DNA of 32,816 bases, from the NCBI RefSeq assembly GCF_003697815.1, contig NZ_RDQG01000058.1, forward strand, positions 1 through 32,816, given 5' to 3'. Below are positions 16,126 to 17,701 of the stretch, one piece after another (the stretch's first letter is position 1; the number at the start of each line of letters is the position of its first letter). The position numbers and the translations under genes were made by a program. The notes beneath the pieces were generated by a model. It did no database searches. It saw only the letters and a list, made by a program, of their open reading frames with translations, and was not told the DNA's origin. Origin of the DNA: Halalkalicoccus subterraneus. GTDB taxonomy: Archaea > Halobacteriota > Halobacteria > Halobacteriales > Halalkalicoccaceae.

Positions 16126-16503
16126 CTACCGCCCACCCGGCCCACTAGGTCCACTCGGCCCGTGCGGGCCACGAGGGTCGACCCCGATCTCGACGTACTC
16201 GTCGGGCGGACGGGGTTTGACCTCCTCACCGCCCTCGAACCGAACGAAACTCAGGTAGAAGGGCTCGCCACAGCCCACCGTCTCGCGCTCCTCGCCTTTC
16301 GGCGGACGAAAGGAGAGCCCTGCCGAACCGTCCTCCCCACAGACGAACCGCACGCCGTCGCTTTCTTCGTAGTCCTCGTCGGGACCGGCGTACTCCCATC
16401 CTTCGAACGGGTAGGGCGTCACCGACTTGTCGGCGAGGTAGGCGTCGCGTTCGAGTTCGGCGAGCGCTCCACACTGGGGACAGTAGTAGGTGACGGCGAC
16501 CAT
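16126..16503 (-). CDS. Zinc-ribbon-like protein of unknown function
   Basis: This 125-residue protein begins MVAVTYYCPQCGALAELERDAYL with a CxxC knuckle and has further cysteines in FVCGED and VGCGEPF, so a metal-binding module with two halves separated by an acidic insert (about 28-55) is likely. The C-terminal tail is Pro/Gly-rich. It has no membrane segment. It lies upstream of the 69-residue gene in the same direction. Possible roles include nucleic-acid binding or protein contact. The sequence does not say which. Confidence 0.72.
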   Translation of the reverse strand: MVAVTYYCPQCGALAELERDAYLADKSVTPYPFEGWEYAGPDEDYEESDGVRFVCGEDGSAGLSFRPPKGEERETVGCGEPFYLSFVRFEGGEEVKPRPPDEYVEIGVDPRGPHGPSGPSGPGGR

Positions 16504-16580
16504 ACCCTTCGTAGGGAATGCCCGCGTTTAGATCTGCCGTGTAGGGGCTGTTAGCGGCAAAACGGCGCGGTGTCCGGTCC

Positions 16581-16790
16581 GCGTGTGGCTACCGAGTTGG
16601 CAGCCACGCGAGGAGGACGGGGGAGGGCTGCGGCCCCGGAAGCGGTGCGCGATCGCGCACCGCGACTCGGCGGAGCCTGGTGGTCCTCGGAAAATCGGAG
16701 ATTTCCGGGATCTCGCGGGAACAGAGTTTCCGCGGACCTCGCGGCGACATCGTTGCCGCTCAGCGCCGAGAGATCGCGGAGCGGTCTCTC
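16581..16790. repeat. Chain of consecutive imperfect palindromes (hairpin array)
   Basis: The gene-free interval 16504-16849 holds a run of inverted repeats. From left to right: GTGGCT.CC/GG.AGCCAC around 16596, a perfect 22-bp palindrome at 16642-16663 (core GTGCGCGATCGCGCAC), a weak GGC-GGA-GCC at 16669-16677, CGGAAAATC-GGA-GATTTCCG at 16688-16707, CGCGGGAAC-AGA-GTTTCCGCG at 16714-16734, GCGGCGAC-ATC-GTTGCCGC at 16741-16759, and GAGAGATCGC-GGA-GCGGTCTCTC at 16768-16790. The last four have 3-base centres and are spaced about 26-29 bp. Three of them have exactly one G-T wobble per stem. It could be a structured RNA leader, a repeat element or a protein array. No function is known. Confidence 0.7.
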
Positions 16791-16849
16791 GTAGCGACAT
16801 GCAAAGGGCGAGGCGAAACTGCCAAGGTTCGCCGAGGGCTTTCGCGAGT

Positions 16850-17701
16850 ATGATCGACGAGACGGTCGCGGAGATCGAGGAGATGCAGACCCACAGCTCC
16901 TCGGTGGTGGCTGTCAAGGCCGCCCGTGCGCTCTTCGAATTGAACGACCGCGAGTACGCGACGGTCGATGAGTTCGTCCGCGACGTCGAGCGAAACAGCT
17001 CGGTGCTTCGGCGGGCGAACCCCTCACACGCCTCGCTCTTTAACGTCCAGCGGACGATCACCCGCGACCTCAACGAGGCCGACCCCGACAGCGTCGAGGA
17101 GGGCAAAGCCGCCCTCGAAACGGCCATTGAGGAGATGGTCGAGCGCATCGAGGGCGGGAAGAAACGTGCGGCCGCCCACACTGCCGAACTCATCGAGGAC
17201 GGCACGACGATACTGACCCACGACTACTCCTCGACGGTGAACGCGGCGATCGAGCGGGCCGTCGACGGCGGCGTCTCGGTGTCGGTCTACGTCACCGAGG
17301 CCAGACCGCGAATGGCGGGTCGAAAGACCGCGCGGAAGCTCGGCGAGATCGACGGCGTCGAACCCACGCTGATCGTCGACAGCGCCGCGGGCACCTACCT
17401 ACAGGAGTGCGATTTCGTGTTGATGGGAATGGACTGTCTGGTGAGCGATACGCTGTACAACCGTATCGGGACCTACCCCATCGCGGCGACCGCCGCCGAC
17501 CTCGACGTTCCCATGTACGTCACCGGTTCGGGGGCGAAGCTCATCGACAGCGGCTTCGCCTTCGAGAACGAGTACCGCCCCACGAGCGAGGTGCTGTTGG
17601 AGCCGACCGAAGGCTTCGCGATCGAGAACCCGCTATACGACGCGACGCCCGTCCGACTGCTCGATGGAATCATCACCGACGACGGCGCGATGTCCTTCTG
17701 A
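16850..17701 (+). CDS. eIF-2B/ribose-1,5-bisphosphate isomerase family protein lacking the catalytic Cys
   Basis: This 283-residue protein belongs to the eIF-2B alpha/beta/delta family, which in archaea includes R15P isomerase and methylthioribose-1-phosphate isomerase. The N-terminal helical domain spans about residues 1-110, and the Rossmann-like C-terminal domain includes VYVTEARPRMAGRKTA, LIVDSAAG, a MGMDCLVSD stretch with Asp195, and GTYPIA. R15P isomerase uses a Cys in a THC motif plus an Asp. Here the equivalent is THDYSS (123-128), so the Cys is Asp125, while Asp195 is retained. It is therefore more likely a regulatory or non-canonical member than an AMP-pathway isomerase. The ATG at 16850 is chosen over an upstream-open frame that runs through the palindrome array with a basic composition. 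Confidence 0.85.
   Translation: MIDETVAEIEEMQTHSSSVVAVKAARALFELNDREYATVDEFVRDVERNSSVLRRANPSHASLFNVQRTITRDLNEADPDSVEEGKAALETAIEEMVERIEGGKKRAAAHTAELIEDGTTILTHDYSSTVNAAIERAVDGGVSVSVYVTEARPRMAGRKTARKLGEIDGVEPTLIVDSAAGTYLQECDFVLMGMDCLVSDTLYNRIGTYPIAATAADLDVPMYVTGSGAKLIDSGFAFENEYRPTSEVLLEPTEGFAIENPLYDATPVRLLDGIITDDGAMSF

Follow-up and report, generated by a model that had tools for sequence, protein, structure and literature searches.

A dispersed family of covarying mosaic hairpin elements in Halobacteria

Introduction

A chain of hairpins precedes an eIF-2B-like gene in Halalkalicoccus subterraneus, within a stretch of 32,816 nucleotides that was analysed as a whole (the window). Our preferred reading, in which we place about even confidence, is that this chain represents a single copy of a dispersed, multi-copy element of Halobacteria, non-coding and built as a mosaic of hairpins, recognised in single-stranded form and REP-like in character. 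The family and the covariation of its stems are firmly established by the comparisons described here; we infer that its members act at the DNA level and have moved in the past. In bacteria, palindromes dispersed through extragenic DNA have been studied in depth; to our knowledge, little is known of them in archaea.

Results

The hairpin chain in the window

Direct reading of positions 16560-16850 revealed seven consecutive hairpins (16578-16833) between a divergent small gene and an eIF-2B-family gene (Table 1). All the inverted repeats described in an earlier note on this DNA were present, including the repeat with 16-nt arms, the 22-bp palindrome and the four triloops; the single G-T pair per stem claimed for three of the triloops (16715-16733, 16741-16759, and 16768-16790) was also found. 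The extent given there (16581-16790) proved too short, because it omitted the last hairpin (16796-16844), which is the best-conserved module. The perfect 22-bp palindrome does exist, but it is really a tetraloop hairpin: homologous copies have GACC, GGTC or AACC as the loop in place of the GATC found here, so its exact palindromy is incidental. The fold of the element was compared with those of 200 dinucleotide-preserving shuffles. It was far more stable than the shuffled folds on either strand, with z-scores of -4.2 (+ strand) and -4.5 (- strand), and no shuffle was as good (0/200).

Table 1. Positions of the hairpin element, its modules and the adjacent genes in the window
Feature	Position	Strand	Basis or remark
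Left-hand gene, divergent	16126..16503	-	ORF; start at 16503
Whole mosaic hairpin element	16567..16844	+	Left edge approximate, right edge at CTTTC|G
P1 hairpin	16578..16614	+	Inverted repeat with 16-nt arms; relatives have other stems at the same position
Conserved single-stranded linker GGGG(A/G)A(A/G)GGC(T/A)	16619..16629	+	In almost every copy, also in other families
P2 hairpin, 22-bp palindrome in the window	16642..16663	+	Hypervariable stem; loop usually GATC/GACC/GGTC
CCTGG joint, conserved	16676..16680	+	Comparison of copies
P3 triloop hairpin (loop GGA), optional module	16688..16708	+	In many copies missing, or altered with pairing kept
P4 triloop hairpin (AGA), optional module	16715..16733	+	Present in L099, L100, L117 and others; most short copies lack it
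P5 triloop hairpin (ATC), optional module	16741..16759	+	Comparison of copies
P6 triloop hairpin (GGA), optional module	16768..16790	+	Inverted repeat; relatives carry re-paired variants
P7 3' module: AAAGGGCGA - variable stem - GCCA loop - variable stem - GAGGGCTTT	16796..16844	+	
Right-hand gene, eIF-2B / ribose-1,5-bisphosphate isomerase-like protein	16850..17701	+	TIGR00511, E=4e-45

The right-hand protein had its best match to ribose-1,5-bisphosphate isomerase (TIGR00511) at 154 bits. This lies below the family cut-off of 314, so the isomerase-like assignment is a candidate only. The left-hand protein matched no NCBIfam family; the same left-hand neighbour is found in G001, G002, G004, and G014. 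In the window, the start codon of the right-hand gene follows P7 by 6 nt, compared with 38-40 nt in the orthologues of G002, G004, G014, and G042, where the gap holds a segment such as CGGAAGGTCTTTGCCCCGAGACCGAGAGGATCGGGT, promoter-like in look. About 32 nt, including the likely promoter, are missing at 16844-16850 relative to these orthologues, as read from a draft assembly of 101 contigs. Either the eIF-2B-like gene uses another promoter or start, or it has been damaged by this copy of the element. An open frame of 372 aa (16583-17701) spans the whole element into this gene; its Arg/Ser-rich extension through the element is probably spurious.

Copies and common plan

The earlier note had proposed a BLASTN search, and this returned two close copies from the same genome, C68:30199-30408 (90%) and C68:12058-12298 (83%), along with about 10 partial ones. 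The window element also resembles some 70 loci across seven Halalkalicoccus genomes. Each of the seven contains 5-25 blastn matches, which were merged into 70 elements and compared with their flanks. A common plan emerged: GCGGTGGCCGG - P1 - GGGGAAGGGC - P2 - CCTGG - optional P3, P4, P5, and P6 - GACATG - P7. The order of the modules is fixed, and the unpaired motifs are invariant, while the stems are hypervariable yet paired. Family-wide, GCGGTG(G/T)CCGG is conserved 5' of the P1 hairpin, which is bracketed by GA..GA. For P2, 37 distinct hairpins were collected; their covariation is descriptive only, since they were chosen by pairing. A P3-like hairpin was seen in three copies of family f8 (L222, L228, and L231) as well.

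The copies, almost all of them intergenic, behave as mosaics. Middle modules are often missing among Halalkalicoccus copies, some copies carry P7 units in tandem with differing stems, and additional hairpins sit within P2 or P7 in others. Identical P7 arms recur at different sites: 39 distinct arms were counted among 54 pattern matches (one of them, L145_2383, spurious), and the arm GGCTGACC is common to 6 loci. In G103, two NADH dehydrogenase-type genes enclose a solo P7 unit (L170, ~1480-1560), which has the short degenerate repeat GAGGTGGAYCG on each side. Two elements of G001 (L112 and L114) are broken beside P7 by C or G runs with an N, probably reflecting assembly trouble at strong hairpins.

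Covariation in P7

The 51 P7 copies align gap-free as a module of 49 nt, in which the flanks of the stem, AAAGGGCGA and GAGGGCTTT, are nearly invariant. The loop is GCCA, closed by C-G in 25 copies and by U-A in 25. Every one of the nine stem pairs is altered on both sides in some of the copies, and the covariation score was 0.615, compared with 0.179 after shuffling and at most 0.093 with slid partners. The suggestion that pairing is kept by compensatory change was thus confirmed. The basal stem also reaches into the flank with matched changes in L175, L188, L189, L220, and L251, the extensions being AGAAAG/CTTTCT, TAAAAAG/CTTTTTA, GTAAAG/CTTTAC, and ACTAAG/CTTAGT. A kink-turn reading of P7, made by eye, was discarded, since the internal loop has three bases on each side.

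Taxonomic spread and the aCPSF1 site

A covariance model of the module (R1) matched the window P7 with E=1.1e-13 and found 4-24 copies in each of the seven Halalkalicoccus genomes, with matches down to E = 1e-14. Under strict filters, at which weak copies are lost, the large R1 searches placed P7 (E <= 1e-5) in 66 of 392 related genomes and in 27 of the 95 haloarchaeal genera sampled; in a phylum-wide sample of 295 genomes, searched likewise, the matches were confined to the same order. Full-plan copies also occur in families f4, f6, f7, and f8 and in the sister genus of Halalkalicoccus. Some genera contain many copies, and others have single, vertically kept ones.

All 17 single-copy f8 genomes examined have the element directly 3' of the stop codon of aCPSF1, a beta-CASP ribonuclease by its TIGR03675 match (776 bits). 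Among the 14 distinct sequences of this site, 9/9 P7 pairs vary on both sides (0.555 vs 0.169 shuffled), while the joints and the loop stay constant. Therefore, the stems either acquired new pairs at this site in the course of descent or were exchanged whole. G007 and G008 have the same gene pair without the element, the aCPSF1 stop being followed immediately by the promoter of the next gene. At the same position in G015 (L205), P1 and the linker are kept, and P7 is replaced by unrelated hairpin-rich sequence.

Rfam scans of the window and its relatives gave no score above the gathering threshold of any family, in agreement with the earlier statement that no known RNA family matches. Plasmids and phages (blastn) and viral contigs (P7 pattern scan) contained no match to the element, and no description of this hairpin family was found in the literature searched. 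The family is real and widespread, and it is apparently undescribed in the sources that we searched.

Position relative to genes

In about 40 clusters of genes to the right of the element, P7 ends within one of two narrow ranges: -2 to +4 nt from a stop codon on the opposite strand, or 34-45 nt ahead of a start codon on the same strand. Distances to left-hand genes are looser, and all four combinations of neighbour orientation were found. Of the few apparent outliers, some (for example L100, L109, L118, and L140) were due to wrong gene calls, as became clear when their flanks were read directly. Real outliers are L103, which has an inserted segment, the solo P7 units in G025 and G103, and the window copy; L101, L128, L132, and L149 form a -16/-22 distance group. 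Profile matches identified aCPSF1, ileS, rpoL, EF-1beta, and a PDCD5-type DNA-binding protein among the neighbours, and others, recognised from sequence only, we take to be gyrB, glutamate dehydrogenase and the like. Since the element accompanies some 40 different genes across many genera, in every gene orientation, it is not a structure of the eIF-2B-like gene, and the proposal of a leader for that gene fails. The sites are often common to several families, which speaks for long-standing vertical retention more than for ongoing movement.

Pair composition and strand

Structured RNA families normally hold several percent G-U pairs. In a strict count over 345 hairpins, we found 3552 Watson-Crick, 32 G-T, 24 A-C, 73 G-A, and 17 C-T pairs; a relaxed count gave 45 G-T vs 25 A-C among 3824 pairs. 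G-T makes up about 1% of the pairs and is at most slightly preferred over A-C, so the wobbles, which had been read as a sign of RNA pairing, make a weak argument for RNA once the whole family is considered. A wobble control on 23S rRNA provided too few simple hairpins to calibrate the G-T share. G-A outnumbers C-T in a strand-specific manner, which suggests the + strand as the folding strand. In the aCPSF1/dsbB arrangement of Halalkalicoccus, the two neighbouring genes both run antisense to this strand, and inspection by eye picked out no TATA-like promoter preceding the element. The low G-T share, the G-A excess and the antisense + strand favour single-stranded DNA over RNA as the acting form, with moderate confidence; the small G-T excess of the relaxed count leaves room for RNA.

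The orientation of the elements along chromosomes showed no significant clustering, and hence no replication-strand bias was found. G042 looked replichore-split, but shuffling gave P = 0.12, and the other genomes showed nothing of the kind. Two copies of G042 (C1:3155338 and 3158892) are located less than 8 kb from an orc1/cdc6 gene at 3151490 and may lie close to an origin of replication.

Discussion

Relation to known dispersed repeats

The BOX elements of Streptococcus pneumoniae consist of end modules with an optional variable middle, and they are intergenic and structured. The haloarchaeal element is alike in all these respects; its sequence and host are unrelated. We know of no description of re-paired stems or of class-wide orthologous sites for BOX. 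BOX elements are named in PMC10969869, as are ERIC and other prokaryotic MITEs, with which our element shares its short, non-coding, intergenic, palindromic and multi-copy nature. It differs from them in that its stems covary and that visual inspection showed no clear terminal inverted repeat. A general target-site duplication was rejected by comparing flank alignments (mean of 6.6 for own flanks vs 6.1 for mismatched pairs), with one clear case only, in G025. There, a nearly perfect ~40-bp direct repeat lies on both sides of a solo P7 (L168, ~1430-1600) and comes from the 3'-terminal part of an acyl-CoA dehydrogenase-like gene, stop codon included; this is a possible trace of an insertion event. 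The right ends of IS200/IS605 (PMC6006769) likewise have a subterminal hairpin, and the AAAG of P7 5' of the hairpin can pair with the terminal CTTT; the likeness is a resemblance only.

The REP/BIME sequences of enterobacteria are extragenic mosaic hairpins with a fixed foot, read in single-stranded form by a Y1-type TnpA-REP (RAYT) protein (PMC6006769, PMC2817692). They share with our element the dispersed extragenic palindromes, the many copies and the mosaic arrangement of a few modules. In contrast to them, the haloarchaeal element lacks the GT[AG]G foot and has the P7 flanks instead, its P7 stems are hypervariable with strong covariation, it keeps a fixed distance from gene edges, and it has 4-24 copies per genome, whereas REPs usually exceed 100. 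Because the foot and general target duplications are absent, we claim membership in neither the REP nor the MITE class. A hairpin element acting as single-stranded DNA, comparable to REP, BIME and BOX repeats, fits the data best.

Alternative explanations

Chance clustering of palindromes in a GC-rich spacer is practically out of the question: the z-score of -4.2, the homologues in the same genome, the covariance-model matches to E = 1e-14 and the covariation have already refuted it. The perfect stems could instead be made by mutation, with template switching correcting quasi-palindromes in the absence of selection for pairing. Nearly all pairs being Watson-Crick, with few wobbles of any kind, and the swapping of stems as whole cassettes both agree with this; it leaves unexplained the invariant unpaired motifs, the loop and the module order across many genera, and we judge it quite improbable. 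Somewhat better, though still doubtful, is a structured RNA (a small RNA, a leader or a 3' UTR) in which folding of the transcript maintains the stems. The very strong covariation, the constant GNNA-type loop and internal loops, the strong predicted RNA folding and the small G-T excess of the relaxed count (45 vs 25) speak for it. Against it stand a G-T share about equal to that of A-C in the strict count, the occurrence in all orientations to the neighbours, the antisense position of the + strand at Halalkalicoccus aCPSF1, the lack of a TATA-like promoter recognisable by eye and the lack of Rfam matches.

The strongest of the alternatives, which we still regard as unlikely, sees here a DNA boundary element of the host, for example an insulator or a site for transcription termination or nucleoid proteins, that was placed at gene edges for its function and is not a mobile repeat. 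It would account for the right end anchored to stops or starts, for the aCPSF1 site kept with its structure maintained in 17/17 single-copy f8 genomes, and for the sites common to different families. However, the distribution is patchy (66/392), with many relatives lacking the element at the same sites, and the mosaic swapping and the 4-24 copies in Halalkalicoccus resemble the dynamics of repeats. A bolder version, which we rate slightly lower and on a par with structured RNA, would make the element an ancient single-stranded hairpin boundary mark, whose constant joints and loops are read by a host protein that separates adjacent genes, with the stems free to change; its founder, vertically kept, would be the copy that follows aCPSF1, a termination factor.

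Proposed mechanism and significance

For the preferred REP-like reading, the + strand of the element would fold into hairpins when single-stranded. The constant parts (the GA..GA brackets, the GCCA loop, and the GGGC/GAGGGC joints) may then be recognised by a putative single-strand nuclease or transposase-like protein. Such recognition would have spread the modules and would allow their swapping, much as for REP/BIME units. Copies would persist only in the spaces left between functional sequences, beside stop codons or ahead of promoters. That the f8 site has been kept for so long argues for a benefit to the host from at least some copies, and some of these, such as the one after aCPSF1, probably serve as a boundary element. 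Several observations count against the preferred reading: target-site duplications are lacking outside G025, the plasmids, phages and viral contigs searched contain no copy, sites recur between families, orientation is not significantly clustered along chromosomes, and the relaxed count has a small G-T excess.

The family is widespread in Halobacteria and is tied to the exact edges of core genes (aCPSF1, ileS, rpoL, gyrB, and EF-1beta). Because its stems covary to an extreme degree and contain few wobbles, it can serve as a test case for distinguishing DNA-level from RNA-level selection on hairpins, and as a warning that covariation alone is no proof of RNA.
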